DNA of 64,000 nucleotides from an uncultured Bacteroidales bacterium (GTDB lineage: Bacteria; Bacteroidota; Bacteroidia; Bacteroidales; UBA932). Made by a program: the position numbers and the translations under genes. The stretch's first letter is position 1, and every line of letters starts with the position of its first letter. This document shows positions 1-21,792 of this stretch, in pieces. The DNA lies in NCBI GenBank assembly GCA_949294195.1, contig CASFGK010000009.1, positions 172,839 to 236,838 of the forward strand, written 5' to 3'. The notes below the pieces were generated by a model, which was not told the origin of the DNA, made no database searches, and was given only the letters and a program-made list of their open reading frames with translations.

Positions 1-1801
1 GAGCAAGCTCGAATATACCAGGGTATACGCCGTTTCTGGAAGCATAGAGGTACTGGTAGTCATAGTTGTAGAACTCATGTCCTGCCTGCGCGAGGAAATG
101 GAACTTGCCGAACGTACGCTCGTATTTGAGAATCTGGTTCCATGTATAGGAGAATGTCCTTGTAGAATACTTGGAGATTGAACCCGCTGTCGCTGTTCCG
201 TCTCCGTGATAAGGGTTGGTGTATGTGGAAACCCTGCGGTTGGCGATGTCGGCACCGAAATTCGTGGTGAACGACAGTCCTCTGAAAATGCCCATGATAT
301 CCTTGTCTCCACCGAAGACAGCGTAGGCGCGGACACCTGAGTTGTCATAGAGGGTCTGGTAGTTGTTCTCGTGAAGATCACCGAGAGTGTTGAATCTTGA
401 TGCTGTAGGACGGTTGTTACCTACGGTATTGTCACCGTAGTCATACTGTTTTTTACCGTTTTCATCGAGAAGGTCTGCTCCATTGGCATCCTTGAGGTAT
501 ACAGGATATATAGGAGCCATGAACTGTGCGGTGTACCATGCGTTGCTTGTATAGGTTCCGTCAGTTATGCTTGTACTGGCCTGATCGGTGTAGGAATAGC
601 TGACACTGGCTCCGAGCTGCAGCCAGTCGGTAACGGTATGGTCTACGCTTGCACGGAGAGAATATCTCTTGAATCCTGTTGTGGTGAGCACTCCCTTATC
701 GTCCAGATAGCCGGCAGAGAACGCGTATTTGGTCTTATGGTCACCGCCGCTGACTCCGAGTGTGTATTCCTGGCGGACAGCAGTCTTGTTGGTGATGGCA
801 TCCATCCAGTCCTCGTTCCATGAAGATACGGCATCCGGCTGGATATGTCCTGTGGCAGGGTCGATGAGAGTAGCCCATGTATAATTCTTATAAGGATTGT
901 AGAATTCTCCGCCGAGCTGGCTGGACATGTTGGCAGAAGCCATGGAAGCAGCCTCATCGAAAGAATATCCTCCGTTCAGGTAATAGTTGTTCCTGAGTGC
1001 TTCCCATGTGAGCTCGACGAACTCGTCCTGTGATACCAGATCGTATCTCCTTACGGAGCGGGACTGAAAACCGACCTGAGCCTTGAGGTTTACTGACAGA
1101 TGTCCTTCCGAACCTCTCTTTGTGGTAATCATGATGACACCGTTTGCAGCACGAGAACCGTAAAGTGCGGCAGCTGACGCATCTTTGAGGACCGTCATGG
1201 ACTCGATGTCGCTCGGGCTTATTGATGACAGATTGCCGTCGAAAGGTATGCCGTCCACTACATAAAGAGGCTGTGAGCTTGCGTTGATGGATCCGGTTCC
1301 TCGGATGGTGATTCCTGCACTGGAACCAGGCTGTCCTGAGCCGGAAGTGACAGTGATACCGGCGACCATACCCTCAAGGGCCTTGCTCACGTTGGAAACC
1401 GAACGTTTTGCAAGATTCGAGCTTCCGACAGTCCCGGCAGAACCAGTGAACGATGATTTTTTGGCAGTACCATAGGCTACTACTATGGTTTCATCAAGAG
1501 CTTCAGTGTCAGGGTCAAAGACCACATTTATCACAGCCCGCCCGTTGATTTGCTCCTCTACGGTCACATAACCTACTGCCGAGAAGACGAGGACTCCGTC
1601 GCTGGGAGCGTTGATTGTGTAGTTACCTTCTGCATCCGCAGATGTGCCGTTAAGCGTACCCTTGACCATAAGGGATGCGAAAGGAACCGCTTCGCCTGTC
1701 GCGGCGTCAGTGACCGTACCCGTGATTCTCATATTCTGAGCGAATACGCTGACTGCTATAAACAGCGACAAGGCACTGAGAAACAGTTTAGCTTTTTTCA
1801 T
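1..1801 (-). CDS. SusC-family TonB-dependent receptor (SusC-A), partial
   Basis: Outer-membrane SusC/RagA-type receptor that would import a ligand with a partner SusD lipoprotein and TonB energy. I translated the minus strand from an ATG at 1801 and the frame stays open to base 1, giving about 600 residues; the C-terminal barrel lies outside the window. The start MKKAKLFLSALSLFIAVSVFAQ is a signal peptide. A carboxypeptidase-D-like regulatory domain follows (GTVTDAATGEAVPFASLMVKG), then a TonB-box-like stretch (DETIVVAYGTAKKSS) and a plug domain with the SusC signatures LYVVDGIPFDG and LYGSRAANGVIMITTK. It shares its 5' leader with the other two susC genes of this window. No Bacteroidota promoter was found upstream in the present orientation, so it may be silent. 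Family assignment is firm; ligand unknown. Confidence 0.95.
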   Translation of the reverse strand, partial: MKKAKLFLSALSLFIAVSVFAQNMRITGTVTDAATGEAVPFASLMVKGTLNGTSADAEGNYTINAPSDGVLVFSAVGYVTVEEQINGRAVINVVFDPDTEALDETIVVAYGTAKKSSFTGSAGTVGSSNLAKRSVSNVSKALEGMVAGITVTSGSGQPGSSAGITIRGTGSINASSQPLYVVDGIPFDGNLSSISPSDIESMTVLKDASAAALYGSRAANGVIMITTKRGSEGHLSVNLKAQVGFQSRSVRRYDLVSQDEFVELTWEALRNNYYLNGGYSFDEAASMASANMSSQLGGEFYNPYKNYTWATLIDPATGHIQPDAVSSWNEDWMDAITNKTAVRQEYTLGVSGGDHKTKYAFSAGYLDDKGVLTTTGFKRYSLRASVDHTVTDWLQLGASVSYSYTDQASTSITDGTYTSNAWYTAQFMAPIYPVYLKDANGADLLDENGKKQYDYGDNTVGNNRPTASRFNTLGDLHENNYQTLYDNSGVRAYAVFGGDKDIMGIFRGLSFTTNFGADIANRRVSTYTNPYHGDGTATAGSISKYSTRTFSYTWNQILKYERTFGKFHFLAQAGHEFYNYDYQYLYASRNGVYPGIFELA

Positions 1802-1938
1802 AAGCAAAAAAACTTAGTTAAACATAAATATTGATACACGTATTTCGTCTGATCCTCCACCCCTTCCGGCCATGCTGAAAGCCGTGTCCCCGGCTTCCCG
1901 GAAAAGCCGGTTCCCGATGCACTTTTTAAGGGGCGTTT
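1792..1938 (-). repeat. Left copy of 147-bp susC leader inverted repeat
   Basis: Read on the minus strand, this segment is nearly identical to 15432-15578 on the plus strand. It runs from AAACGCCCC through the whole leader into the first codons (ATGAAAAAAG) of the receptor gene. I see only a few substitutions and two compensating one-base length changes. The two copies are inverted relative to each other and flank about 13.5 kb. Recombination between them would invert that segment and exchange what lies upstream of SusC-A and SusC-C. It contains the 26-bp core element at 1814-1839. Confidence 0.85.
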
Positions 1939-2317
1939 TTCAGGGCATGGCCGGCAATCAGGAAGTTTCCGGGCCTGTGCGCTGGAAGAAAGCGGAAAGC
2001 CTTATGAATGGGGCCGGCAGAGAGGCCGCCGTATGAAATTCCGGACCCGAGCGTACGGCGGTTTTGTGTAACATGATGACTGTTAGTGCAATACAAAAAG
2101 AAACTGTGCTTAAGACCCCTTTTTTCATGGTCTTAAGCACAACCGTGTAAATGCAATATGTTGACTATTAATGCATTGCTCTGATTTGTCCGTACGCTCG
2201 GGTCCGGTTTCTCAGGAGGAAGGACAGTCCAGTCACTATGCTTCGGAAGCCTTCCACTGCCCGACAGTCCTTGTGGCCGAGTCGAAGTTCACCCCTACCT
2301 TCACCACTTTCCGTCCG
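1931..2317. repeat. 387-bp direct repeat, copy A
   Basis: Matches 14020-14406 in the same orientation at a constant offset of 12089 with no indel. I count about five single-base differences, apart from an 11-bp spacer at 2118-2128 that is inverted between the copies. The repeat covers most of the 1802-2235 gap and the last 27 codons of the ATPase gene. A 60-codon minus-strand frame (1958-2140) is conserved in both copies and starts with a signal-peptide-like stretch. I do not call it a gene because the copies are too recent for conservation to mean much. Confidence 0.85.
2041..2207. promoter_or_regulatory. Candidate invertible segment with 18-bp inverted repeats, copy A
   Basis: Perfect 18-bp arms CCGGACCCGAGCGTACGG (2041-2058) and its reverse complement (2190-2207) bound 131 bp. 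An inner perfect 13-bp inverted repeat, TGTGCTTAAGACC (2105-2117) with 2129-2141, has almost the same centre, so the whole is a nested dyad. Invertible promoters of Bacteroides have this general layout. No TAnnTTTG box was found inside in either orientation, so the promoter role is unproven. It could instead be a cruciform, a transcription stop or another recombinase target. Confidence 0.5.
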
Positions 2318-3798
2318 TCGGCGGTATATGGCACCAGATATCCCTTGCTGTCTATCTGGCGCAGAGCGTCCTCAGCTGATCCGTCCACCTTCAGCTCGAA
2401 CACATAGATATGGGTTGATGTCTTGATCACGACATCCGCCCTGCCGGCAGCACTCCTGACTTCGCTATCAACGTACAGACCTGTCATGGAAAACAGGAGA
2501 TAGAAGATGGTATGATAGTGCTTCTCCGTCTTGTTGTCCAGATCATAAGGGATGGACGCGAAGAAGGCCGTAATGCGATTCATGCAGCTGGCGATATCGT
2601 TCTTTTTCAAATCTGATACTACGCCTATAATAAAGGAGTTGCGACTTAGATTCACATCGTTTACGTAATATGGGACAAGCGCCCGGATAAATCCGAGTCG
2701 GACCTCTTCATTAGGATACGCGAGAGTGTATATCCTGTAGACCGGATCATAACTTTTTATAGTCAGATATCCGCTCTGGTACAAGACAGGCAGAGGACTT
2801 ATTATTTTCTCTGTCGGAGCGTCAAATTGCTCCGGCATAGCCTGCACCCCTTCCAGACTTTCAATGTCGAAATCATATTTCCGGAGCAAGTCCAGCAGAT
2901 AGGTAGGGGTGCCGGATGAGAACCAATAATGGTCATAATCAAGATTGTTCAATGCATTCAGCAGACTGAAAGGGTTGTATATGTCCTCGCACTCCGGACT
3001 GAAATGATACCCGTCGTACATCTTCTTAAGGTGCTCCAGAGCCTCCTCATAACTCTCCCCGTTCTTCGCCGCAAGCGCCTCCACATCCGGTGCCAGTTGC
3101 TCCCTCAGCTCCCTGTCCGTGATTCCGCAGATCGCGCTGAAGCGGTCCTTCATACTGATGTTCTGAAGGCTGTTCAGCTCGCTGAAGATGCTCATCTGGC
3201 TGAACTTGCTTATCCCGGTAATAAACACGAACCGAAGCATCGCATCGCTCATCTTTACCACGCTGTAGAAACTCCTCAGCATGTTACGCAGCTTTTCCTG
3301 AAGCTCGGGGTTCCCGTTGCTGTCCAGAAGAGGGGCATCGTATTCGTCCACCAGAAACACCACCTGCCGCCCCGTCTTCTCGTATGCCCTCCGGATGATG
3401 CCCCCGAACCGTCCGGCAGGGGTCACTTCTCCTTCCCCTTTCCCGTATCTCTCTTCCAGACGCGAAAGCTGGATGTCCAGCTGCTCGGACAGGTCATCAG
3501 TACTGAAGTACTTCGTCCCGCTGAAATCGAAGTGGAGCACAGGATACTCTGTCCATTCCTTCTCCAGCGACTCCATCGCCAGACCGCGGAACAGCTCCTT
3601 CCTCCCGGAGAAATACGCCTCGAGAGTCGTCACCAAAAGGCTTTTCCCGAACCGACGCGGGCGGCTCAGGAAATAGATCTTGTCCGATGTGACCAGGTCA
3701 TATATCATTCCGGTCTTGTCTACGTATACGCATTCCCTCCTGCGTATCTCGCTGAATGTCTGTATCCCTATCGGGTATCTCCTCCGTGCCGTTTCCAT
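2236..3798 (-). CDS. AAA-ATPase-like / PD-(D/E)XK nuclease family protein
   Basis: About 520 residues, belonging to the large Bacteroidota family with an N-terminal AAA-ATPase-like domain and a C-terminal PD-(D/E)XK nuclease-like domain. Visible motifs are a P-loop variant (SRPRRFGKSLL), a Walker B-like strand (VVFLVDEYDAPLL) and, near the C-terminus, the nuclease core GRADVVIKTSTHIYVFELKV with Asp and Glu-x-Lys. I chose the ATG at 3798 (METARRRYPIG) because the family begins there; an upstream in-frame ATG at 3837 adds 13 unlikely residues. The gene points towards SusC-A but is separated from it by the 434-bp repeat region. The cellular role of the family is not established. Its last 27 codons also occur as a detached fragment at 14325-14406. 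Confidence 0.85.
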   Translation of the reverse strand: METARRRYPIGIQTFSEIRRRECVYVDKTGMIYDLVTSDKIYFLSRPRRFGKSLLVTTLEAYFSGRKELFRGLAMESLEKEWTEYPVLHFDFSGTKYFSTDDLSEQLDIQLSRLEERYGKGEGEVTPAGRFGGIIRRAYEKTGRQVVFLVDEYDAPLLDSNGNPELQEKLRNMLRSFYSVVKMSDAMLRFVFITGISKFSQMSIFSELNSLQNISMKDRFSAICGITDRELREQLAPDVEALAAKNGESYEEALEHLKKMYDGYHFSPECEDIYNPFSLLNALNNLDYDHYWFSSGTPTYLLDLLRKYDFDIESLEGVQAMPEQFDAPTEKIISPLPVLYQSGYLTIKSYDPVYRIYTLAYPNEEVRLGFIRALVPYYVNDVNLSRNSFIIGVVSDLKKNDIASCMNRITAFFASIPYDLDNKTEKHYHTIFYLLFSMTGLYVDSEVRSAAGRADVVIKTSTHIYVFELKVDGSAEDALRQIDSKGYLVPYTADGRKVVKVGVNFDSATRTVGQWKASEA

Positions 3799-4000
3799 GT
3801 CCCTGATTTTATTGATGCAACTTCCTTCTGCAGACAAGTCAAAAGGATATATTCACAAATTAAGACATTTTTTACCGTTTTTGAAAATAAACTGCAAGCC
3901 GAGAGCAGTGCCGGAACTTGTTCAGGAAATGCCGAGGCGAAGCGTGATTGTAAACAAAGTTTAAAATATGATCCGGCAAGGTTGCCGGAAAACCGCGGCC

Positions 4001-4474
4001 CTACAGGAACCTGAATCCGGTGCCGGTGTTTGTTTCAGACTTGGTGCCCGACAAAAGTCCGGAAAGCACGTCTTCCGGAATGTCTGCTGCTTCATAGACA
4101 ACATCCCCGCTGCCGTCATCAGGAGTAAGGGTCATTTCGGTCCGGTCGTTAGAAAAACTTGCAGTATAACTGCTGCTCCATGGCGTTCCGTCACTGTATG
4201 TCCCCGTCACCTGCCCGCCATCCTGGGTATAAGTCCCTTCATAATGTTCGTAATACGGAGTATAGACTCTTTGATAAAGGTCGAATGTCCCGTCTTCACC
4301 GAAAGATACGTATACGTCAGCCCTGTCGGATGAAATGGAGCTCCACTGTATCATGTGCCACTGGCCTGCAACAGGTCCTGACCCTTCAGGAAATTCAGGT
4401 CCGTTCTTCTTGCAACTGAGAACCGCTGTCAATGTCATGGCCGCTATTGCCATATATTTCAATATATTCTTCAT
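4001..4474 (-). CDS. Small lipoprotein, lipocalin-like
   Basis: 157 residues starting with a lipoprotein signal (MKNILKYMAIAAMTLTAVLSCKK; lipobox Leu-Ser-Cys). The mature part has the GQWHMIQW start and alternating beta strands (FGEDGTFDLYQR, YEGTYTQDGGQVTGTY) seen in Bacteroidota lipocalin-like lipoproteins. It lies 15 bp downstream of the protease gene on the same strand, so the two are very likely cotranscribed. It is probably anchored in the outer membrane or exposed on the surface. Function unknown; a role in binding a product or protecting the protease partner is only a guess. Confidence 0.75.
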   Translation of the reverse strand: MKNILKYMAIAAMTLTAVLSCKKNGPEFPEGSGPVAGQWHMIQWSSISSDRADVYVSFGEDGTFDLYQRVYTPYYEHYEGTYTQDGGQVTGTYSDGTPWSSSYTASFSNDRTEMTLTPDDGSGDVVYEAADIPEDVLSGLLSGTKSETNTGTGFRFL

Positions 4475-4489
4475 TACTTTCCCTCCTTT

Positions 4490-6490
4490 CTAAAGCCAGC
4501 CGCCGTTTACCGGATTGCCGGGCCTTGCTATAAGTGCAAACTCTTTTTCAATCATCATTCCGTTTATGCCGGAGTCGCTGTTTGTTCCGGCTCGGAGCGT
4601 TACTTTCATTATGCCGGAACCTGGTTTTGAACATGTAAGAAGGATGCGTCCGCCGAAAACAGTAGGAGATGATGTAATTCCAAGACGTGATCTGTCCTCA
4701 GCCGAGATTTCCACCGTAGAAACCTGAAGATTAGGACTGCCGTCACCGATATATTCGGCGACATCAATCATCACTTGGGAACCTGTGGAAACAGGAATGC
4801 AGGTCGTACCCCGTATATTCATCAGGACCTGGAATGCGTCTATGTAGCCTGATCCCATCTTGTTCCTGTACGCAGACAGATCCAGTGTTGCCAGCTTGCC
4901 GCCACTCACATATTGCTTCATCCCTGTACAGTACTGATCGATTCCGTTGACCGATGTTAGCAGGATTGACTTGAATTCCTTGGATGTAAATGTCTTGCCG
5001 GTCTGAAGGGCATATGAAAGGCCCAAGGCCGCAACCCCTGAGACGTGCGGACAGGCCATCGACGTTCCCTGAAAGTAGCCGTATTCCCCTCCTGCAATTG
5101 TAGACAGAATCTGTGAGCCGGACCCTTCATTTTCCAGATAGGACTGGTAGGCGTCGCCTCCGGGTGCTGCTACATTGCATCCCGGACCGAAGTTGGTGTA
5201 ATACGCCGGCGTATAGTCGCAGGACATTGCGGTAACTGATATATAGTCCTTGTATGCCCCAGGATATGCACCTATGGAACTCATTTCATTCCCTGCAGCG
5301 AATATGGCAATACCGCCGTCGACTGCATCACAGTTCTTTGTCCCGGAGAAATAATCTATTGCTTCTTTCAGGACACTTTCGTTCTGTTCATATTTGCTGT
5401 CTGATGTATACGCGCCCGCATCATAACCAAGGCTGCACTGTATGATTGCAGCGCCGTTATCTGCTGCATATTTGATAGCCTTGGCCAAAATACCTCCGGA
5501 ACCGCCTTCTTCACCCCAGAAAACCTGACAGGACATTATTCTCGCTCCGTCCCCGTTCCCTGACCCTCCGGCAATACCGCTGACGCCTGTTCCATTGTTG
5601 TTCACAGCTGCCACAGTCCCGGCGACATGAGTTCCATGGGATGCCTCCAGACCTTCAGGCAATACAAGCGGAGAATCTGTCACGAAATTGAAGCCGTAGA
5701 CATCGTCTACGAGCCCGTTCCCGTCATCATCAATGCCGTTCCCGGGTATTTCCCTGTCATTCATCCACATATTGGCGGCGAGATCAGGATGGTCCCACTG
5801 GACGGCATCATCGATGACTGCAACGACTACTCTCGGGTCTCCTGTGCAGAGATCCCACGCTCTGACACAGTTGGCATCCGCTCCGGCCTTTATCCCTGAA
5901 TAAATGTCCGTATTCCCGACATTTTCATAGTTCCACTGAAGTCCCAGATAAGGGTCGTTGAATGCAGTTCTGCCGGAACCAGCCTTTGTCAACATTTCCG
6001 ATACAGAAAGAGGAGTGACTTTAAAGTCCGATGCAATCTCGAGTTTTTGGTTGAACTCTACCTTTGACACTTCCGACACTGAAGCCAATGCAAGGGCAGC
6101 TTCCTTTAGATCCGTGCCTTTATCGAATTTTACAGTGTACCATCTGTGCAGCCCGGCCTTTCTTGTTCTCTCTTCATTCCGGATATCTACCGGGAAAAGA
6201 CGGTTGAAAGACTCTGCCCCGATATTCTCCAGTACGGAATCGAAATCATCTATTCCGGAACGGGTCATCACCCCGCAGGCCTTTGTAAGGGCAGATTTCT
6301 CCACCTTTTCCACAGCGTTTTCGCTGAAGTACACCAGAAGGTTTCCGTCCACTGCATTTTCAGGAGAAAAAACCAGTTTGGATTCCGCAACCGGATCCGC
6401 TTCCGGCTCCTGAAGCCGTACAGTCTCCGTACAGGAATGGAACAGAACTGCAGCGGCAAGCAGACACGTCAGAACATTAATTTTCCTCAT
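4490..6490 (-). CDS. S8 family (subtilisin-like) serine protease lipoprotein
   Basis: 666 residues from the ATG at 6490 (MRKINVLTCLLAAAVLFHSC), which gives a clean lipoprotein signal; the ATG at 6511 adds a short charged stretch. An inhibitor-like propeptide region (GLHRWYTVKFDKG) precedes the catalytic domain. The catalytic triad is visible: Asp in VVVAVIDDAVQWDHPDL, His in SHGTHVAGTVAA, Ser in GTSMACPHVSGVAALG, with the oxyanion Asn in FAAGNEM. A C-terminal beta domain ends in NPVNGGWL and has no type IX sorting signature. It should degrade proteins at the cell surface. It follows the SusC-B/SusD genes on the same strand but lies behind a terminator-like hairpin. Confidence 0.93.
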   Translation of the reverse strand: MRKINVLTCLLAAAVLFHSCTETVRLQEPEADPVAESKLVFSPENAVDGNLLVYFSENAVEKVEKSALTKACGVMTRSGIDDFDSVLENIGAESFNRLFPVDIRNEERTRKAGLHRWYTVKFDKGTDLKEAALALASVSEVSKVEFNQKLEIASDFKVTPLSVSEMLTKAGSGRTAFNDPYLGLQWNYENVGNTDIYSGIKAGADANCVRAWDLCTGDPRVVVAVIDDAVQWDHPDLAANMWMNDREIPGNGIDDDGNGLVDDVYGFNFVTDSPLVLPEGLEASHGTHVAGTVAAVNNNGTGVSGIAGGSGNGDGARIMSCQVFWGEEGGSGGILAKAIKYAADNGAAIIQCSLGYDAGAYTSDSKYEQNESVLKEAIDYFSGTKNCDAVDGGIAIFAAGNEMSSIGAYPGAYKDYISVTAMSCDYTPAYYTNFGPGCNVAAPGGDAYQSYLENEGSGSQILSTIAGGEYGYFQGTSMACPHVSGVAALGLSYALQTGKTFTSKEFKSILLTSVNGIDQYCTGMKQYVSGGKLATLDLSAYRNKMGSGYIDAFQVLMNIRGTTCIPVSTGSQVMIDVAEYIGDGSPNLQVSTVEISAEDRSRLGITSSPTVFGGRILLTCSKPGSGIMKVTLRAGTNSDSGINGMMIEKEFALIARPGNPVNGGWL

Positions 6491-6527
6491 CTCTTTCTTT
6501 TTTATTTTCAAACTTACTGATTATTCC

Positions 6528-6572
6528 AAAAAAGAGTGCCAGGATTGACTGAAAAGTCACCCTGACACTCTT
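6528..6572 (-). terminator. Intrinsic terminator between lipoprotein and S8 protease genes
   Basis: On the minus strand, AAGAGTGTCAGGGTGACT pairs with AGTCAATCCTGGCACTCTT (two mismatches) around a TTTC loop, followed at once by a run of T. This is a strong rho-independent terminator shape. It lies 39 bp after the lipoprotein gene and 38 bp before the protease start, so transcription from the SusC-B promoter would be stopped or reduced here. Confidence 0.8.
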
Positions 6573-6611
6573 ACATGTTGGTCTATAGTTTCCAGACAAC
6601 AGACATTTCTG

Positions 6612-9005
6612 TTATTTCAGAGGCGCTTGCACATGGGTAGCAGTTGCCTTTACCAAACGCCTTTGTGTCTCATCTTTCGGAAGCGGGTCACATTTACTGC
6701 CTGTTGTGGCAACTGTAGTGAGCCTGTCAGCGGAACGTGCCTGATATATACCGGCCGGCTCTGCGACGGAGACATGTCGTAAGAACATATCAGCAGTACC
6801 GTTGAACATGAAACCAGACATCGGAGATACGCTGAGACTTGAAACGGCACTGGTTTCTGCACTTGGCCGATAAGGTTCAACTGTAGTGTCTTCAGTATAG
6901 AATACGCCGACTGTACCAAGCGGAGATACCGAACCCTCCACTATCAAGGCAAGAACGACCTCTATATTTGTATTGAGCGATTCCACCTCTCCGGAAGCAT
7001 TCACTTTGAATACGACAGGGTCATCCATTGCTTCTGAACCATCCGCATATGTTGCCAGCGCAGTTGCACTGATGTTGTCGCTTGTAACATAACTTCCGAA
7101 AAAGCTTCCTCTATCTTCCTGTCCCGGGAATGTGCCGTCAAGAGTGAGTGTGCCTGCAGTCTCATCATATACCGCATTCCAGGACAATCCGTTTTCAAAA
7201 CCAAGATCGCTGACAACAAATGATGTCCGGCTGTCAGGCTTCGGGGAAATTCTGAAAAGATTTTGCGAAACAAAGTCACTTCCGTCCGAACTTCCTCCCG
7301 GTATTGTGCAGGTCATCATGTATGGCCCGGTCACAAGAGTTCCGTCGTAAGGCACTTCCCCGGTGGCCAATTCATAGCTTACTGTTGCTGATTTTCCGTA
7401 ATCGTTAGTGGCCGAAGCTATGAGCGTATAGCTGGTAGCTGCATCAAGGCCCTCAAAAATATCCCAGACCGGAGTGCCGGAATTAAGATCTGCAAGAACC
7501 TTGCTCATGTCACTGCCGACAGATGCTAACACTTCTTCGAGTGTGAAATCCAGCCAGAGAGCGGAATTAAATGTGCTTGTCGGCAGGAATGCCATTTTCA
7601 GATCTGTAATCTCGCTTCCGGTTATTTCATATACCAATGATGAATAATCCGGATATTCTGAAGCATATTCTGCGGCATTTTCATATTTACTGACAGGATA
7701 CATGGCTACTTTGATGTCGCATTCAGGTATTGTTCCTCCAGACATGCCAGGGAAGTAGAATACACATACTGCAGCATCTTCCGCTTGGAAAGCACCGGAA
7801 GCGTCAGAAGGAACAGCTATCAGCGTATATCTTCCTGCCTGAAGAACAGCCTCAACAGATACAGTTGCAGTACCGTCGCTTTCTGCAAGATCTTCAAGGG
7901 TAGAGGTATTCTCTGCAGTCCCGTCAGTGATTGCGGCAATATATGAATTAATGCTGGATGTAACGTCACCTGCAGCAAACATGTAGGTAATTCCGGCCAC
8001 GTCCGCTCCGTAAGTAAAATCAAATACTGCTGATGCCGTTTCGTTGTCGGATGCTACCCTCATGCCTGAATATTCAGCTGCAAGCGAGTAATCGGTCACT
8101 TCGTATCCTGGCAGCACGATGCGGAACAGTCCGCCTCCATTGGACATAAGCCCATAGTATTCAGAATTGCCAAGGAAGATTTGACTGGCAGGGAAAGTTA
8201 TGATCCCCTCTTCCAGAACGCCTGGTTTGAACGACTCAATGTAAAGTATGCCGAGATTGTTGCTGGACCCATCTTCAATGCCGGTAGGTTGCAATGGAAT
8301 CAAGACTGCTGCAGGATCTGTACAGTCAATGGTAATGTTTGTTGGTGTATACGACTTTACATATCCTTTACCTACAATCTCTTCCTCTGTACCACCGAAA
8401 AATTCAGTGAGAAAATTCCATCCGTACATGTTTTCTATCATATACAGGCCTTTAGTGGATTTGTTCTCATATACAGGGACTTCAACTTCAACGTTACCGC
8501 CACTCCACATACCTGTGAACCAGTCATCTCTGTACTTTCCAGTTCCGAGATATTCCCATGGCCAAGGAGTCAATGTGAGACTCAATTGTGAGTAACCGTA
8601 AGGAGTTGTATTCTCCGGATCATTGAGGAGAAGCGCCAGAGAGTATGTGGTACCGTCAACCATGTCTGCACGCTTGAATGATACCACCAGAGACGCCTCG
8701 TCTTCTCCGTCTGCGAATGTCACAGACTCAGGGATGGTGAAGAGAGATGTCGGATCAGTTTCGTTTTGGCTGAAATCAGATAATACTGTAACAGTATATT
8801 CTCCTGCAGTATTCGCCCTTTTTACCGGGATAGTGACAGAAGTCGTATTGTCATCCAGACTATAGTCTGTCTGCGTAGTCTCCGGGAAAAAGACCTGCAT
8901 TCCGGAAGCTTCAGGTCCCGGCTGGAACTCTTCTTCTGTGCAGGAGGTGAATGCTCCTGCCAAAAGGGTGAGACCCATAAATAAAATTAATCTTATGTTT
9001 TTCAT
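6612..9005 (-). CDS. Large surface lipoprotein of the SusC-B/SusD-B locus
   Basis: 797 residues with a lipoprotein signal (MKNIRLILFMGLTLLAGAFTSCTEEE). It sits directly after SusD, as SusE/SusF-type ligand-binding lipoproteins do. The N-terminal 120 residues resemble a Calx-beta-like beta domain (TSLFTIPESVTFADGEDEASLVVSFKR); the rest is beta-rich with Ig-like repeats (SYTLIASATNDYGKSATVSYELATG). I recognise no catalytic motif. The gap to SusD is 16 bp, so it belongs to the same transcript, which probably ends at the hairpin at 6528-6572. Probable role: surface capture of the peptide or glycan handled by the receptor pair. The specific family is not identified. Confidence 0.8.
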   Translation of the reverse strand: MKNIRLILFMGLTLLAGAFTSCTEEEFQPGPEASGMQVFFPETTQTDYSLDDNTTSVTIPVKRANTAGEYTVTVLSDFSQNETDPTSLFTIPESVTFADGEDEASLVVSFKRADMVDGTTYSLALLLNDPENTTPYGYSQLSLTLTPWPWEYLGTGKYRDDWFTGMWSGGNVEVEVPVYENKSTKGLYMIENMYGWNFLTEFFGGTEEEIVGKGYVKSYTPTNITIDCTDPAAVLIPLQPTGIEDGSSNNLGILYIESFKPGVLEEGIITFPASQIFLGNSEYYGLMSNGGGLFRIVLPGYEVTDYSLAAEYSGMRVASDNETASAVFDFTYGADVAGITYMFAAGDVTSSINSYIAAITDGTAENTSTLEDLAESDGTATVSVEAVLQAGRYTLIAVPSDASGAFQAEDAAVCVFYFPGMSGGTIPECDIKVAMYPVSKYENAAEYASEYPDYSSLVYEITGSEITDLKMAFLPTSTFNSALWLDFTLEEVLASVGSDMSKVLADLNSGTPVWDIFEGLDAATSYTLIASATNDYGKSATVSYELATGEVPYDGTLVTGPYMMTCTIPGGSSDGSDFVSQNLFRISPKPDSRTSFVVSDLGFENGLSWNAVYDETAGTLTLDGTFPGQEDRGSFFGSYVTSDNISATALATYADGSEAMDDPVVFKVNASGEVESLNTNIEVVLALIVEGSVSPLGTVGVFYTEDTTVEPYRPSAETSAVSSLSVSPMSGFMFNGTADMFLRHVSVAEPAGIYQARSADRLTTVATTGSKCDPLPKDETQRRLVKATATHVQAPLK

Positions 9006-9021
9006 ATGAATATTATCTTAA

Positions 9022-10683
9022 TTATTCAACGTCGTAGGACATGCAAGGATCCGGGTTATTTGTCGTAAGAAGGATTTCGTTTCTCTGTGCAATGGATACT
9101 GGAATTGTCTGGTTCCACCATGGAGCCCTGCCCTGGGTGTCGAGACGGGCACCTGAAGGAGCATTGTTGGATGAGTTCTGAATGCTCTTATTCAATCTCT
9201 TCATGTCAAAGAGGATAAGGCCTTCTCCCCAGAGTTCGATTCTTTTTTGGAAAAGGATTTCATCGATCAGGTTGTCTCCTGAAGAATTTGCAGCGGATAC
9301 CTTATAACCAGGAGCTCTATTTGCCATGAAGCTCTCCAGTAGAGTTACGGCCTGTCCTGCATCATAATGTGCAACTGCTTCGGCTTCAGTCAAGTACATT
9401 TCTTCTACTCTCATCAGAGGAATGCTGGTTACATTTGCAGTAGAATAGTCTGACTTTTCACCGCCTGCAGTATGGAATTTGGTACTTGCATAAGCCGCTA
9501 CTGTCTGGAACTCCTCTTCTGTGAGATTAGTGTACGGCTCAAAAGCCGACCAGTCACGTTCCGGGTTCACGAATGAAAGACGACGGAAGTCGTTCGGATC
9601 TATGCGGGCATACAGGTTTGAAGGAATTCCAGGCTGTGCCAGATAGCCGTAGCCATACATTGCATCAAGACTCATATGGGCACTCCATGAAAGAAGGTTA
9701 TTCAGGACAGTGTCTGTAGACTGGATCATGGCCCACATCCAAGCCGCATTGACAGTATTGAAGCCAGTAAGAGGATCAAGCCACTGGGCAGAAGTCATGA
9801 TTGCGCATCCTGATGTTTCGATAGCCTTTCTTGCAAACTCGGCTGCAAGCCTGTAGGCAGCTTCACCAGTAGGCACATTCTCATAAGAGACATCTGTGAA
9901 TTGTCCGAGCCACAAGTATGTCCTTGCCTTAAGTCCGTAAACAACTGCCAGCGAAGGAAGGTTTTTCTGCACCGGTGCATACCCTGCCAGACATGCTTCG
10001 GCATCATCCAGGTCGGACAAAATAAATTCGAAAGCCTGTTCGCGTGGCATGCGCGGGTTGTTACGGAGTTCGTCCACAGTAGAAGTCTCTGTGACGAGAG
10101 GGACGGTAAGACCGTCTACTGCCTGCCTCTGGGTTTCATAATTTCCAAGTTTCGGAGCCTTGGCAGGAAGCGGGTCGTAGTGTCTTACAAGGTCGAGATA
10201 GAAGAGAGCGCGGAATGCCTTGGCGATTCCTCTAGACTCTTTCAGTGATTCATCCTCGCCTACCGTGGCCAGGACATCATTCGCTGCCTTGATGAACTGG
10301 TAATAGTTCAGATAATGCAACATTGACCATCCGCTTGCAGCATCAAGGCCGGATGTCTGGCAAGGATAAAGCCATGCCTGCCAACGGTCATAATACTGGT
10401 TGCCACCAGGAAGGTTTTGGGCAACAGGAAAAACATCACCGGAAAGACGATCGTTTGCTCCCATTATTCCAGGATATCCGAAATCAACATGTTCTCCCAA
10501 ATCAAGATAATTGGTTATCATTATCGTCGGGATGGATGCAATCATGCCCTCTGTTGCTATAGGGGATTCTGCTATCTGTTCCGAAGTAGCGTTTCCTCCC
10601 TCGGGGAAAGTTTCCTCAATGCACCCAGACAGCAACAATGCAGCTCCGGCAAAAACGCAAGTATTGAAAAATATTCTTTTCAT
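9022..10683 (-). CDS. SusD/RagB family nutrient-binding lipoprotein (SusD-B)
   Basis: 553 residues. Lipoprotein signal MKRIFFNTCVFAGAALLLSGC. SusD features include the TPR-like helical core (SRGIAKAFRALFYLDLVRHYD), the closing RagB/SusD segment (VEEMYLTEAEAVAHYD) and the C-terminal ELWGEGLILFDMKRL motif. It forms the lid over SusC-B in the outer membrane and binds substrate before import. The stop of susC-B lies 18 bp upstream, so the genes are cotranscribed. Its association with an S8 protease suggests peptide substrates, as for RagAB of Porphyromonas, but no residue proves this. Confidence 0.95.
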   Translation of the reverse strand: MKRIFFNTCVFAGAALLLSGCIEETFPEGGNATSEQIAESPIATEGMIASIPTIMITNYLDLGEHVDFGYPGIMGANDRLSGDVFPVAQNLPGGNQYYDRWQAWLYPCQTSGLDAASGWSMLHYLNYYQFIKAANDVLATVGEDESLKESRGIAKAFRALFYLDLVRHYDPLPAKAPKLGNYETQRQAVDGLTVPLVTETSTVDELRNNPRMPREQAFEFILSDLDDAEACLAGYAPVQKNLPSLAVVYGLKARTYLWLGQFTDVSYENVPTGEAAYRLAAEFARKAIETSGCAIMTSAQWLDPLTGFNTVNAAWMWAMIQSTDTVLNNLLSWSAHMSLDAMYGYGYLAQPGIPSNLYARIDPNDFRRLSFVNPERDWSAFEPYTNLTEEEFQTVAAYASTKFHTAGGEKSDYSTANVTSIPLMRVEEMYLTEAEAVAHYDAGQAVTLLESFMANRAPGYKVSAANSSGDNLIDEILFQKRIELWGEGLILFDMKRLNKSIQNSSNNAPSGARLDTQGRAPWWNQTIPVSIAQRNEILLTTNNPDPCMSYDVE

Positions 10684-10701
10684 TTTACGACTGTCTTTAA
10701 A

Positions 10702-13700
10702 TTAGAATGTAAGGGTTATGCCTCCGGAAATGGTCCGGACAGGCGCATAATAGAACGGATTCGTAGATCCGGAAATAGACTGTCTAGGATCAAGCCCCTG
10801 ACGTGCTGACCAATACCACAAGTTGTCGCATGTGACATATATGCGGAAACTGTCTACAAGGAACTTGCGAGTAATGTGTTTAGGAAGCGTATATCCGAGA
10901 GTGATATTCTGGATGTTAAGATAAGATGCACTGGTAAGGAATCTGTCTGATGTGGCATTTGAATATGTATCACCATAAGACATACGCGGGATATCCGTAC
11001 CGGTGTTCGTCGGAGTCCATGAGTCCCACAGGTCGCGGTGGTATGTAAATCCAGTCGATGTACCTGTAGGCGAGCCCATGAAGCGAGCATAACCGCTGTC
11101 ATATACCAGACCTCCGAGTTGATAAGTGAAGTTCACCGAGAAATCGAGTCCTTTCCATGAGAGGGATGTTCCGAATCCTCCATAGAGGTCCGGAGTGGCG
11201 TCGCCCTGAATCTCGCGTCCGTTGGAGGATGCCTCAGAATAATTCGTTGTAGTGACCCTTTCAAGCTCCCCGCTTTCAGCATTTGTCGTATAAGTGTACC
11301 ACATGGATTGTCCTGTCGTCGGGTCGACTCCCGCATAAGTAGGAAGGTAGAACGAGAAGAATGATTCGCCTTCGCTGCGGAAATAGTTGCCGTCTAGAAG
11401 ACCTGTCATCTTTCCGTCAGAAGTGGTGTTTGTCTTGTACTCGTCAGGCAGGAGAAGGAGTTTGTTGCGGTAATGTGTCATATTGAGATTGACGCTCCAT
11501 ACCAGATCCTTTGTCCTTACGATATCAGCGAACAGCTCAATTTCTACTCCTCGGTTTGCCATGTCTCCTATATTGGTATAATAGGAGTTATATCCGGCCT
11601 CTACAGGGACAGGCAGAGAGAACAGCATGTCCGAAGTCTTACGGTTGAAGAAGTCGATATTTCCTGACAATCTGTTCTTCCAGAACCCGAATTCAACACC
11701 AACGTTGAAATTAGAGTTTGTTTCCCATGTAATTTCAGGATTTCCTTTCCTCTCGAATACAGTAGTAATTCCTCCATTTCCATCATTTGAGATAGAATAA
11801 TAGTCCACATAAAGATAGTCTGCAATACCATCATTTCCTTGTGAACCATAAGAAGCTTTCACTTTCAGCATATCAACCCATGGTGCATTGAACCAGCTTT
11901 CATCGCTAAGTATCCATGCTGCACCTACAGACCAAAAGTTACCCCATCTGTGATCAGGGTGAAAACGGGACGACGCATCTCTACGGTAAGATGCCGAGAA
12001 GTAGACGCGGCTGTCGTAATCATACTGGCCTCTGAAGAAATATCCTTCATTGTTATATTCAGCTACGGAAGATCCTGATGAGGAGTTGTCAACAACGGCT
12101 CCGCTAAGTTCAAGGTTTTCATATGAGAACATTCCGCTTCTTGTTGCATAGAGCCCGTATGATTTCCTGTTATACATCTCGTGCCCGAGAAGAAGGTCCA
12201 TATGGTGAATCTCACCGAATGTCCTATTGTATGAGAGCAACTGCTGAAAGTTGTATGTGAATTCCCTGCTATGCTGTTTTGTAACAACACCACCAGACTC
12301 AGCAAATTGGCCGTAATAAGGGTTGAGCATTGTAGTGTGACGGGTCTCATCTACCGTAACGCTACCATTGACAGTGAGTTTCAAACCTTTGCAGAAAGTA
12401 ATATCCGCAAATCCGTTTGCAGAAAATGCATTACCTTCGCTAATATATTTATTAAGCTGTATATCCTGAAGGTCATTGCTTTGACCTCCATTAGTTCTAA
12501 GGGCGCCACCGTTACGTCCATCTCCGGAGTCATACAAATCCATACCATATTGGTCTTTCATTATATTTCCGTTCCCGTCACGTATATAAACAGGGTAGAT
12601 AGGCGCCATCATATATGCGGTTGCGAATGCATTGCCTCCATCTGCCGCACCTTCAGACCCAGTGTCATTACCATTGTTCCATACGAAATGCGTATATGCC
12701 ATGTTCGCTCCGACTTTCAGCCAATTTTTTGCCTGATAATCGCCACGGAGACGTGCTGTCAGACGGTTATTTGAAGAACCGGCAATAATACCGTTGTTAT
12801 CAAGGAAACCGAGTGAAGCATAAAAATTGGATTTGTCTGTCGCGCCTGCAACGTTGATGTTATACTCCTGACGGAATGAATTCCTATAGATCTCATCAAG
12901 CCAATTGTCTGGATAAAGGAGATATTCCTGTCCGTTGTAAAGGACTTTACGTCCGAGTGTTGCATTAGGATTCAGGCGGCCGTTGGCTCCTATGAGAGTC
13001 TGTCCATCCGGTACAGTATAGACGTTATATCCGACACCGCCCGCATTTGTAGATGTCAACAAGGCATTTGCCTGCGCGTATGCATCAGCTGTAGTCAGTC
13101 CGCTGTTTATGGTGTAATTGTTATACAATGATTTATATGCCATCTCGTAGAACTCGCCTGCATTGTCGATCAGGTCATAGGAACGGAGGGCCTTGTTGTT
13201 CATACCCCATTTTGCGTCAAATGTGACCTTTGCTTCTCCGGATTTGGCCCTCTTGGTAGTAACCATGATCACACCGTTCGCACCGCGGGCTCCGTAAAGG
13301 GCATTGGATGCAGCATCCTTTAATACGCTGATGCTTTCAATATCGGCTGTATTGATATTATTGATATCACCTTCATACGGAACACCGTCAACGACCCACA
13401 AAGGGGAGTTTCCTGCATTGACGGAACCGTAACCGCGGACATACATGGTCTGTTCAGATCCCGGACGCCCTGATGCTGATGCGAACTGAACTCCGGCTAC
13501 CTTACCTACGAGAGCCTCAGATACATTTGTTACCTGATTCCTGACAAGTTCGTCGCTTTTGAGGACCTTGGCAGAACCTGTGAAGGCCTCTTTCGTGGTG
13601 GTACCGAACGCTACCACGATGGTCTCGTCCAGAAGTTCAGAATCCGGATGAAGAGAGATATTGATGGTCTCCTGTCCGGCTACAGGAATCTCCTGAGACT

Positions 13701-13938
13701 GATAGCCTATAGACGAAAAAATAAGGGAAGCGTCGCTAGCAACAGCTATTGAATACCGCCCGTCCGCATCAGTGCTGCCTCCGTCCAGAGTCCCTTTGAT
13801 CTGGATTGTAGCGAATGGGATACCGTCCCCAGTCTCTGAATCCGTAACGACTCCGGTTACTGTGATATTCTGCGCGAAAGCGGCTGCAGAAGTCATCAGC
13901 ACAGTCAACACTGTGAAAAAAAGCTTGATTCTTTTCAT
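10702..13938 (-). CDS. SusC-family TonB-dependent receptor (SusC-B)
   Basis: 1078 residues, a full-length SusC. Signal peptide MKRIKLFFTVLTVLMTSAAAFAQ; carboxypeptidase-D-like regulatory domain (GVVTDSETGDGIPFATIQIKG); TonB-box-like DETIVVAFGTTTKEAF; plug with LWVVDGVPYEGD and NALYGARGANGVIMVTTK; a 22-strand barrel ending in GGITLTF. It imports ligand with SusD-B. Its first 130 residues closely resemble those of SusC-C, while the barrel differs, so the receptors share a plug-side region but probably not ligands. The start ATG at 13938 follows the shared leader. No TAnnTTTG box reads towards it between 13939 and 14488, so expression may need a DNA rearrangement. Confidence 0.95.
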   Translation of the reverse strand: MKRIKLFFTVLTVLMTSAAAFAQNITVTGVVTDSETGDGIPFATIQIKGTLDGGSTDADGRYSIAVASDASLIFSSIGYQSQEIPVAGQETINISLHPDSELLDETIVVAFGTTTKEAFTGSAKVLKSDELVRNQVTNVSEALVGKVAGVQFASASGRPGSEQTMYVRGYGSVNAGNSPLWVVDGVPYEGDINNINTADIESISVLKDAASNALYGARGANGVIMVTTKRAKSGEAKVTFDAKWGMNNKALRSYDLIDNAGEFYEMAYKSLYNNYTINSGLTTADAYAQANALLTSTNAGGVGYNVYTVPDGQTLIGANGRLNPNATLGRKVLYNGQEYLLYPDNWLDEIYRNSFRQEYNINVAGATDKSNFYASLGFLDNNGIIAGSSNNRLTARLRGDYQAKNWLKVGANMAYTHFVWNNGNDTGSEGAADGGNAFATAYMMAPIYPVYIRDGNGNIMKDQYGMDLYDSGDGRNGGALRTNGGQSNDLQDIQLNKYISEGNAFSANGFADITFCKGLKLTVNGSVTVDETRHTTMLNPYYGQFAESGGVVTKQHSREFTYNFQQLLSYNRTFGEIHHMDLLLGHEMYNRKSYGLYATRSGMFSYENLELSGAVVDNSSSGSSVAEYNNEGYFFRGQYDYDSRVYFSASYRRDASSRFHPDHRWGNFWSVGAAWILSDESWFNAPWVDMLKVKASYGSQGNDGIADYLYVDYYSISNDGNGGITTVFERKGNPEITWETNSNFNVGVEFGFWKNRLSGNIDFFNRKTSDMLFSLPVPVEAGYNSYYTNIGDMANRGVEIELFADIVRTKDLVWSVNLNMTHYRNKLLLLPDEYKTNTTSDGKMTGLLDGNYFRSEGESFFSFYLPTYAGVDPTTGQSMWYTYTTNAESGELERVTTTNYSEASSNGREIQGDATPDLYGGFGTSLSWKGLDFSVNFTYQLGGLVYDSGYARFMGSPTGTSTGFTYHRDLWDSWTPTNTGTDIPRMSYGDTYSNATSDRFLTSASYLNIQNITLGYTLPKHITRKFLVDSFRIYVTCDNLWYWSARQGLDPRQSISGSTNPFYYAPVRTISGGITLTF

Positions 13939-13949
13939 TGGTTGATACT

Positions 13950-13975
13950 TTAGTTAAACATAAATATTGATACAC
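13950..13975 (-). repeat. 26-bp susC leader element, B copy
   Basis: On the minus strand this 26-bp sequence, starting GTGTATCAATATTTATG and ending TTTAACTAA, is identical to 1839-1814 (minus) and 15530-15555 (plus). In all three places it ends 12-13 bases before the start codon of a susC gene. Beyond this element the SusC-B leader no longer matches the SusC-C leader, so this is the minimum common unit of the three. It may be a recombination site, a translation signal or a small-RNA target. Confidence 0.8.
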
Positions 13976-14019
13976 ATAAATTTCCATGGCGGAGCGCCCT
14001 TTTCCATGCATTTTTATTC

Positions 14020-14406
14020 GGGCGTTTTTCAGGGCATGGCCGGCAATCAGGAAGTTTCCGGGCCGGTGCGCTGGAAGAAAGCGGAAAGCCTTATGAATGG
14101 GGCCGGCAGAGAGGCCGCCGTATGAAATTCCGGACCCGAGCGTACGGCGGTTTTGTGTAACATGATGACTGTTAGCGCAATACAAAAAGAAACTGTGCTT
14201 AAGACCATGAAAAAATGGGTCTTAAGCACAGCCGTGTAAATGCAATATGTTGACTATTAATGCATTGCTCTGATTTGTCCGTACGCTCGGGTCCGGTTTC
14301 TCAGGCGGAAGGACAGTCCAGCCACTATGCTTCGGAAGCCTTCCACTGCCCGACAGTCCTTGTGGCCGAGTCGAAGTTCACCCCTACCTTCACCACTTTC
14401 CGTCCG
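14020..14406. repeat. 387-bp direct repeat, copy B, with 18-bp inverted repeats
   Basis: Second copy of 1931-2317. It carries the same perfect 18-bp arms at 14130-14147 and 14279-14296 (131 bp between) and the inner 13-bp arms at 14194-14206 and 14218-14230. The 11-bp spacer 14207-14217 reads ATGAAAAAATG here, whereas copy A has CCTTTTTTCAT, its reverse complement apart from one base. Direct repeats of this length could also delete the 12 kb between them by homologous recombination. Confidence 0.85.
14325..14406 (-). pseudogene. 3' fragment of AAA-ATPase/PD-(D/E)XK gene
   Basis: The last 27 codons of the ATPase gene at 2236-3798, ending VGQWKASEA and stop, are present here inside the repeat, without the rest of the gene. 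Similarity breaks off sharply at 14406 (2317 in the intact copy). Beyond the break lies the leader of the invertase gene. This shows that the segment was copied, or recombined, from a locus of the layout ATPase, repeat, susC. Confidence 0.8.
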
Positions 14407-14454
14407 AACATGGTGACCGGTATCTTTACACTAAGGTATACCCTTTCCCTTTTA

Positions 14455-14466
14455 TTGAACGTTCAA
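14455..14466. promoter_or_regulatory. 12-bp palindrome upstream of the invertase gene
   Basis: TTGAACGTTCAA is a perfect palindrome 22 bp before the invertase start. It could be an operator or a recombinase half-site pair. No second copy was noticed nearby, so the role is open. Confidence 0.3.
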
Positions 14467-14488
14467 ACCCATTTAAAATACCATTATT

Positions 14489-15133
14489 ATGATTTATGCT
14501 TACATCCGCGTCAGCACAGAGATGCAGAACTATGACAGCCAGAAATTTGAAATTCAGAATTACTGTGAAGCCAACGGACTGTCTGTAGACCGCTGGGTCA
14601 AGGAATCCATTTCCGGAACAGTAAAAGTTGAAAAAAGGACTCTCGGAAAAATAATCCGGAAAATGCGCGTAGGCGACAAACTTATCTGTACGGAACTTTC
14701 CCGACTGGGAAGGAACATGCTGATGGTCATGTCCATCCTGAATACATGCTCGGCAAAAGGAATAAGCATCCATTCAATAAAGGATAACTTTGACCTTACT
14801 GACAACATCAACTCGAAAATCATTGCTTTTGCCTTTGCTCTTGCCGCAGAAATTGAAAGGAACCTTATTTCACAGAGGACAAAAGAGGCTCTCGCTCTGA
14901 AAAAAGCAGCCGGAATCAAGCTCGGCAGACCGCCCGGCAAATCAAAAAAACGTGAAAATGCATATAAATCATGGGATGCCATCAATAGGAAAATACAGGA
15001 GGGCATTCCTCTGGTAAAAATTGCAAAGCAATATAAGATACATCGCAACACACTACGTACTTATTTGAATACAAATAATATATATAGTGAAGCTTCTGAT
15101 TTTACCAAGAATGGAAATGACACTTCTCAATAA
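14489..15133 (+). CDS. mpi: Mpi-family serine recombinase (DNA invertase)
   Basis: 214 residues of the resolvase/invertase family, closest in layout to Mpi, the master invertase of Bacteroides fragilis that flips capsule promoters. The N-terminal catalytic domain starts MIYAYIRVSTEMQNYDSQ with the nucleophile Ser9; ELSRLGRNMLMVM carries the conserved Arg residues of the active site, and AEIERNLISQRTKEAL the E helix. A hinge (LGRPPGKSKK) leads to a helix-turn-helix (IPLVKIAKQYKIHRNTLRTYL) that binds the site. The gene is AT-rich compared with its neighbours, which suggests transfer. It lies between two divergent susC genes and their repeats, so they are its obvious local targets, though Mpi enzymes also act at distant sites. 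Confidence 0.88.
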   Translation: MIYAYIRVSTEMQNYDSQKFEIQNYCEANGLSVDRWVKESISGTVKVEKRTLGKIIRKMRVGDKLICTELSRLGRNMLMVMSILNTCSAKGISIHSIKDNFDLTDNINSKIIAFAFALAAEIERNLISQRTKEALALKKAAGIKLGRPPGKSKKRENAYKSWDAINRKIQEGIPLVKIAKQYKIHRNTLRTYLNTNNIYSEASDFTKNGNDTSQ

Positions 15134-15318
15134 AATGACTTTAAAATTGTAAGGTTGAAAATTTATTAATTATATGAAAAATTATGGAAATTATAATTTT
15201 TATAAAATCACCACACCTTTACTTAAAATTTTTAATGCATGGAATCAAAAAACATTGTAAAGTCACAAATAGTATTTAATAACTCGCAAACTCTTTATTC
15301 TATGGCATTTTAAAGATG

Positions 15319-15350
15319 TTTGGAATTAATGAAAAACTGTTCTAACTTTG
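15319..15350 (+). promoter_or_regulatory. Bacteroidota promoter upstream of SusC-C
   Basis: TTTG at 15319-15322 and TAACTTTG at 15343-15350 are separated by 20 bp, an exact match to the Bacteroidota -33/-7 consensus. Transcription should start near 15357 and give a leader of about 210 nt. It is the only exact promoter match found in front of the three susC genes. It lies inside both proposed invertible segments, close to their right ends. The rest of 15134-15318 is AT-rich with no gene seen. Confidence 0.8.
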
Positions 15351-15431
15351 GCGCCATTAGCGCAAATTGTATCCTAACGGAAGAATCTGGATATGGCCTT
15401 CAATTAGAGATTATAAATTTTGCGCACTGTT

Positions 15432-15578
15432 AAACGCCCCTTAAAAAGTGCATCGGGAACCGGCTTTTCCGGGAGGCCGGGACACGGCTTTCAGCATGGC
15501 CGGAAGGGGTGGAGGATCAGACGAAATACGTGTATCAATATTTATGTTTAACTAAGTTCATTTTGCTTATGAAAAAAG
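15432..15578 (+). repeat. Right copy of 147-bp susC leader inverted repeat
   Basis: Inverted counterpart of 1792-1938. It forms most of the transcribed leader of SusC-C. It contains a GC-rich hairpin region (CCGGCTTTTCCGGGAGGCCGG without its last base is 15454-15473) and the 26-bp element at 15530-15555. The match continues into the first codons of the receptor gene. Confidence 0.85.
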
Positions 15579-20098: not shown

Positions 20099-20118
20099 TA
20101 CTTATACAGGAAATGATT

Positions 20119-21006: not shown

Positions 21007-21026
21007 AATCCGGTAAATATGGTATT

Positions 21027-21065
21027 GAAAGTCCGTTTGGGCCGTAAAGGCTCTTGCGGACTTTC
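21027..21065 (+). terminator. Hairpin after the Calx-beta-like lipoprotein gene
   Basis: GAAAGTCCG (21027-21035) pairs perfectly with CGGACTTTC (21057-21065) around a 21-base loop. Only a weak T-rich tail follows. It may reduce transcription into the protease half of the locus, at a position analogous to the terminator at 6528-6572 in the sister locus. Confidence 0.45.
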
Positions 21066-21090
21066 TGTAATAATTGCAATTGTGTGTTAT

Positions 21091-21780: not shown

Positions 21781-21792
21781 CAGCTTGCAAGT

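Follow-up and report, generated by a model that had tools for sequence, protein, structure and literature searches.

The locus described here raises the question of how a single promoter could serve three susC receptor genes, and at which DNA element it would be moved from one gene to another. The window, by which we mean the whole stretch of 64,000 nucleotides that was analysed, is the end of contig C9 (CASFGK010000009.1, positions 172839-236838) in the genome of an uncultured Bacteroidales bacterium (assembly GCA_949294195.1; 2.16 Mb, 88.57% complete). Three receptor units lie on this contig, A and B facing left and C facing right. An earlier note on this DNA proposed that a promoter is shuffled among the three susC genes by inversion at a 26-bp element shared by their leaders. 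Movement of one promoter by inversion is well supported by the site data and by the states found in relatives. The best explanation, which we consider quite probable, is a promoter switch with three positions and a second layer of control by RNA, in which crossover would take place at a different motif and the 26-bp element would be the target of a small RNA (sRNA).

In the arrangement present in the window, susC-C (15569..18559, plus strand; TIGR04056, 2.6e-203) is ON, a term used here for the receptor towards which the invertase points. OFF are susC-B (10702..13938, minus strand; 1078 amino acids; TIGR04056, 3.8e-238) and susC-A (2..1801, minus strand), the latter represented by its 5' part, which runs off the window and matches the Pfam families Plug and CarbopepD_reg_2. 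The sole perfect promoter, a match to the Bacteroidota-type pattern TTTG-N20-TAnnTTTG at 15319..15350 (plus strand), is directed towards susC-C, as the earlier note had stated. Its report that TAnnTTTG is missing towards the other two receptors held over the 600 bp before each of them, where loose TTG-N20-27-TTTG pairs are absent as well.

The Mpi-like serine invertase of 214 amino acids (14489..15133, plus strand) lies inside both the B-C and the A-C segment. It carries a serine-recombinase catalytic domain (Pfam Resolvase PF00239, 1.7e-33), while its HTH_7 match of 21.2 bits falls below the cut-off of 23.8. The nearest NCBIfam model is that of Mpi, NF009949 (E 8.4e-79), and the best sequence matches in the PDB are DNA-invertase structures (3uj3, 1.4e-17). 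The reading frame is intact, and S9, presumably the catalytic serine by analogy, is nearly invariant in an alignment of 19 sequences. Frames with an internal stop occur in some relatives (G005:C64:18107-18427, G089:C2 and G090:C29); these are possibly locked switches.

Which element, then, would such an enzyme recombine? The 23-bp core of the leader element, TATCAATATTTATGTTTAACTAA, has perfect copies at 1814-1836 (-), 13950-13972 (-) and 15533-15555 (+); shuffling the sequence 100 times gave an expectation of 0, so chance is no explanation. The complete 26-bp elements of susC-A (1814..1839, minus strand), susC-B (13950..13975, minus strand) and susC-C (15530..15555, plus strand), each proposed here as an sRNA target, do precede all three receptor genes, with cores ending 12, 11 and 13 bp before the respective ATG, and copies A and B run in the opposite direction to copy C. 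Hin sites have a 12-2-12 layout, and the length of the element suggested a crossover site of this kind with an AA centre. In support of the element itself being the crossover site, one can cite its presence in all three copies, its 26 bp and its inversion between B and C, together with the leaders of loci L069 and L071, whose similarity extends through the element and ends just past it. It was rejected as a 12-2-12 site because a second motif was found and because the element is present without invertases. A 21-mer of the element matches, in any context, 51 genomes of the genus, of which 30 lack an invertase match at E<=1e-20 (some of the 30 being incomplete); 20 of these 30 were inspected, and the element stands before a susC-like gene in 15. 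Furthermore, the homology pattern of the window shifts at AAACG-CC and not at the leader element, the locus-specific two-base core sits in the other motif, and a further copy of the element in the same genome lies within an sRNA-like gene on another contig, C18. Inversion at the 26-bp element, as first proposed, is thus very improbable, and the element appears better explained as a small-RNA target in mRNA. The C18 copy was also considered as a fourth receptor and rejected, since no receptor adjoins it. In loci L011 and L034 the element, with 2 mismatches, occurs 23 nt before a gene without a SusC match (MVNFRKVF...), a possible further target of the small RNA.

Upstream of the element, comparison of the leaders of relatives brings out a second motif: AAACG-NN-CGTTT followed by AGTGCA or a similar sequence. 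Its copies in the window, AAACGCCC, are found at 1931-1938 (-), 14020-14027 (-) and 15432-15439 (+), at distances from the element of 91 bp (A), 44 bp (B) and 90 bp (C). The wider site is readable as a 12-2-12 dyad, site C being CACTGTTAAACG-CC-CCTTAAAAAGTG, and the proposed crossover sites accordingly span 1920..1945 (A, minus strand, core CC at 1932-1933), 14009..14034 (B, minus strand, core CC at 14021-14022) and 15425..15450 (C, plus strand, core CC at 15437-15438). At up to 3 mismatches the site has exactly three copies in the genome, all at this locus. Inverted sites of the AAACG-NN-CGT type are present, the Mpi site motif for comparison being ARACGTWCGT. Two of the junctions predicted in the earlier note, 1938/1939 and 15431/15432, fall at this second motif; the one given for B, 13975/13976, does not.

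A survey of 79 loci (the window and 78 others) yielded 33 with a leader on either side of the invertase. In all 33 the two-base core is the same on both sides of the invertase, compared with a mean of 8.61 and a maximum of 17 in 10,000 shuffled pairings, a figure that is not a strict probability because the loci are related. This count was obtained with a rule refined after inspecting the output of a cruder automatic one, which gave 29/34; of its five misses, three had picked a false leader within the invertase and two a decoy site. The refined version discards leaders that have more than 6 mismatches, and the B site of the window was entered by hand. The cores are CC (13 loci), GA (7), CT (7), AC (4), GT (1) and TC (1), none of them palindromic. 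A directional serine recombinase requires identical, non-palindromic cores. The 46 loci without two leaders were left out of the count, and a matched inverted site pair is present in 3 of them. Sites resembling AAACG-NN-CGTTT also adjoin the invertase in L095, L103, L137, L140, L142, L145, L148, L149 and L162-L164, in which at most one leader of this type was found; invertase and site may thus also exist in the absence of the RNA-target leader.

Promoters were counted over the same 33 loci. A loose promoter pair marks the ON side in 32 loci and the OFF side in 1, and a second loose pattern does so in 22 and 1, respectively, both patterns having been designed after the sequences had been viewed. 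The bare TAnnTTTG box occurs on the ON side in 15/33 and on the OFF side in 2/33.

Homology within the window also leads to the AAACG-NN-CGTTT motif. Inside the motif core, A and B are identical at 99 of 100 positions and A and C at 27 of 100, which is chance level; outside the core, A and C agree at 176 of 203. Homology blocks change partner exactly at AAACG-CC, and the A junction is a mosaic. Neither this asymmetry of A/B and A/C homology nor the motif AAACGCCC was among the features first listed for this DNA. Crossover is likelier at AAACG-NN-CGTTT than at the 26-bp element, judging from the core agreement, the homology switch, the three genomic copies and the presence of the element in genomes without invertase.

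The repeats also lend themselves to a reading as a relic locus without a live switch, a product of homologous recombination and of the exchange of cassettes between repeats of 100-400 bp, with susC-A and susC-B silent. Long repeats are indeed common to A/B and to A/C, receptors have different partners in different relatives, and the invertase frames of G005, G089 and G090 bear stops. Against a relic stand the intact frame of the invertase in the window, with its nearly invariant S9, and a core dinucleotide that is identical within each of the 33 loci and varies between them, which homology alone would not require. We regard a relic as improbable.

Further support for a live promoter switch comes from orientation states, compared between genomes and not within one population. 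Among 18 invertase-bearing loci, the invertase stands between two divergent susC genes in 13, and susC was seen on one side only in 5. Strict promoters adjoining a site lie on the 3' side of the invertase, with the exception of one match in L087 that points back. Pairs of receptors at least 75% identical from different loci (n=38, overlapping pairs) are in opposite states in 20 cases and in the same state in 18. For instance, L110 (ON) and L113 (OFF) are 97.0% identical, as are L131 (ON) and L136 (OFF) at 95.8%, and susC-B, OFF in the window, has a 91.4% identical relative that is ON (L090 in G068). The pair L071 (ON) and L069 (OFF), at 95.5%, is outside the count of 38, one protein being cut short there.

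The proposed mechanism is as follows. The local Mpi-like serine invertase would recombine 26-bp sites of 12-2-12 layout, with core CC, upstream of susC-A, susC-B and susC-C, and the invertible segment would carry the invertase and the single outward promoter together. Inversion between B and C (about 1.4 kb) would join the promoter to susC-B, and inversion between A and C (about 13.5 kb) would join it to susC-A. Sites A and B, direct repeats at present, would become an invertible pair after the A x C flip, so that all three states would be reachable. Each state would turn on one operon of SusC, SusD and S8 peptidase, and mutually exclusive expression of the three receptors, which the earlier note had also foreseen, is the natural prediction. 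A trans-encoded small RNA from C18 would target the leader element 11-13 nt before each ATG and pair with whichever receptor mRNA is made, lowering its translation.

The putative small RNA gene (C18:119418 to about 119525, plus strand) has a promoter-like box and a terminator-like hairpin, GC-rich and followed by T residues. It contains TTTGGCACAATGTTGGCA, the exact antisense of the leader element (21/21 bases). All three leaders are complementary to its 5' region, with predicted pairing at the susC translation start region 11-13 nt before the ATG, so that the RNA could block translation of the receptor that is ON at the time. The pattern TTTGGC-N20-48-TTARACATAAAYATT matches 16 of 80 chosen genomes, comprising 16 of the 51 with the 21-mer and 0 of the 29 without it, a contrast that is partly circular because the pattern contains part of the element's complement; reversed-pattern controls gave 0. 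The look of an sRNA gene is shared by 15 of these 16 matches; the one in G126:C155 is unlike the others, reads as an mRNA leader and was rejected as an sRNA gene. A looser pattern, applied to 65 genomes, matched 20 of 36 with the 21-mer (G126 included) and 1 of 29 others, this outsider having no box; the match in G093 was taken as a chance match. Both patterns together thus give putative sRNA genes in 35 of 51 genomes (15 + 20). An automatic hairpin search missed 3 of the 22 matches of this second group (G093, G126 and G133) and scored several others weakly, and a stem is visible by eye in most. Scanning the sRNA-like genes and the receptor region against Rfam gave no match. Many of the terminator hairpins (L166-L181, L216-L237) share a conserved top, GGTC-GNGA-GATC, and another set of them has CAATT-GTGA-AATTC, which may point to a bound protein. 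In an order-wide sample of 218 genomes, nearly all of other genera, the full sRNA pattern was found in the genome of the window alone, along with one further, unlike match without the GGCAC box; the family may for this reason be confined to the genus.

The pairing was also compared across genomes. In 13 of them, some forming near-identical pairs, cognate duplexes of sRNA and leader average -29.4 kcal/mol versus -24.9 kcal/mol for shuffled combinations, and 0 of 20,000 shuffles were as strong; G078 (removed by a filter) and G026 (which has no leader) were left out. Paired changes are seen in G117 and G081, with TCAATG in the leader and ACATTGA in the RNA, and in G024, with AACAAC in the leader and TGTTAGAC (TGTT) in the RNA. 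These matched changes, and the promoter-like box and hairpin of the antisense genes, speak against the element being a protein-binding or ribosome-related motif of the 5' untranslated region (UTR) to which the antisense genes are unrelated. Such a motif would suit the position near the start codon; RbpB, for its part, is reported to act on a susC 5' UTR (PMC11697453). It would also agree with the 16 of 51 genomes in which neither pattern finds an antisense gene and with a cognate preference that is absent or weak in several genomes. On balance, a role of this kind is rather unlikely.

The C18 gene has the box TTTGGCAC and is the one match to the sRNA pattern in its genome. A GGCAC or GGCAT box precedes 15/15 genes of the first group and 21/22 matches of the second. 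A GC at -12, 12 nt from the GG of a -24/-12 promoter, is present in 13/15 first-group genes, including that of the window's own genome, which also encodes an rpoN-type protein (Sigma54_DBD, 1.8e-52); a recount drew on 14 of these 15 genes together with G126:C155, leaving out G050. Sigma-54 control of the sRNA gene is therefore likely in this species; it fits many relatives poorly, since the GC is frequent in the first group and rare in the second.

The evidence for the RNA-controlled promoter switch is sequence-based: it consists of anatomy, covariation of the sites, the change of homology partner at the core, the opposite states seen in relatives, and complementarity. From it we infer inversion in living cells, transcription of the sRNA and the sigma factor involved; repression as the direction of the sRNA effect is suggested by analogy. 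Several observations weigh against this explanation, in addition to the hindsight in the core rule and the loose promoter patterns, the overlap of the 38 receptor pairs and the near-identical genomes of the duplex comparison. Inversion and RNA are predictions from sequence. The invertase scores 264 bits with the Mpi model and does not reach its curated cut-off of 272; the strict promoter consensus is on the ON side in just 11/33 loci (OFF side 0/33); and the ON state is defined by the direction of the invertase. Partner receptors often differ between relatives, which implies that cassette exchange also occurs, and the opposite states may in part be due to movement of receptor cassettes from one locus to another. 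With regard to the RNA, the cognate leader is the single best of 13 in two genomes only (G024 and G000), the cognate duplex of G139 is worse than average and that of G068 contains one A.C mismatch. In some genomes, such as G026, the sole 21-mer match is the sRNA gene itself, which adds to the circularity of the 16/51 versus 0/29 contrast, and no sRNA was found by either pattern in 16/51 genomes. The -12 GC is present in just 4/22 second-group matches, mostly replaced by GA, and L019, L027 and L033 hold copies of the element that are neither located at susC nor contained in an sRNA-like gene.

Extended to the genus, the proposal is that a self-carried invertase picks the SusCD-peptidase operon that faces the single promoter and that one sRNA, sigma-54-controlled at least in this species and matched to the leader common to all alternative receptors, can silence whichever is on; we lean slightly towards this wider claim. 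The choice would then be random and heritable, and, separately from it, a signal would tune the amount.

Tsr0667 of Bacteroides fragilis is a tyrosine recombinase. SusC shufflons are already known (PMC4747536, PMC11852207), and the targets of Tsr0667 are three SusC/SusD clusters plus nine further regions (PMC4747536). Like that shufflon, the present locus has more than two SusC operons with common inversion sites (A, B and C), at which recombination is predicted. It differs in that its recombinase is a serine invertase sitting inside its own segment, in that its site has three copies in the genome, and in the sRNA layer, none being described for Tsr0667 in the sections available. Mpi of B. fragilis is global, acting on 13 regions, of which seven are capsule promoters (PMC4747536), and a PSA primer contains AGACGAACGT (PMC10939037). 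The window's enzyme resembles Mpi as a serine recombinase with predicted promoter inversion and in its nearest NCBIfam model, just below the cut-off of which it scores; unlike Mpi, it looks local and selects receptors, with three site copies at up to 3 mismatches in a genome that is 88.57% complete. With Hin/Gin-type invertases it shares inverted 12-2-12 sites and its best PDB sequence matches, and it differs in having three sites and three operons. As for the RNA, the FopS sRNAs of B. thetaiotaomicron are reported to pair near susC mRNA start codons and to repress translation (PMC11697453), and they have 14 paralogs and canonical promoters. Pairing near the susC start codon is likewise predicted here; the difference lies in the single gene matched and in a sigma-54-like box in place of a canonical sigma-ABfr promoter.

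Open-licence literature listings contained no paper combining a SusC shufflon, an Mpi-type serine invertase and a susC sRNA, none on inversions of this genus, none on sigma-54 sRNAs of Bacteroides, and no described regulator that targets every alternative in a phase-variable set of receptors. If true, the linked RNA would be such a regulator. The logic of a SusC shufflon would here be served by a serine invertase inside the switch, recurring in numerous members of a large genus of the gut that is known here through metagenome-assembled genomes. Moreover, the natural series of locus-specific core dinucleotides could let serine recombinase specificity be read from sequence.

In locus L005, where susC-A is complete (1060 amino acids from an upstream TTG, 1058 from the ATG at 1801), unit A comprises SusC, SusD, a lipoprotein and an S8-like peptidase, the genes beyond susC being recognised by eye only. 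Downstream of susC-B, unit B occupies 4001..10683 (minus strand) and includes a lipocalin-like protein, an S8 peptidase (4490-6511, minus strand), a lipoprotein without Pfam match (6612-9005, minus strand) and SusD-B (9022-10683, minus strand). Unit C (18581..24369, plus strand) encodes SusD-C, a protein with a weak Calx-beta match, a 253-amino-acid protein and an S8 peptidase with a Por_Secre_tail match. The S8 peptidases of units B and C were identified by Pfam.

Within the A-C segment lies an AAA-ATPase_like/PDDEXK_9 gene (2236..3837, minus strand; Pfam). A partial copy of the A inner arm at 14218..14406, 98% identical to 2129-2317, includes a remnant of the 3' end of this gene (14236-14406), which adjoins the invertase. 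Genes of the same type stand near the invertase or the receptors in L069, L070 and L071 as well. The AAA-ATPase copies suggest that the three-receptor locus grew via duplication of one segment end. Finally, a perfect hairpin stem, GTGCTTAAGACC, occurs at 2104-2141 and 14194-14231, its short loop inverted between the A and B copies. The stem stands beside a larger inverted repeat (2034-2058/2190-2214), and it may be a terminator that insulates the receptors in the OFF state.

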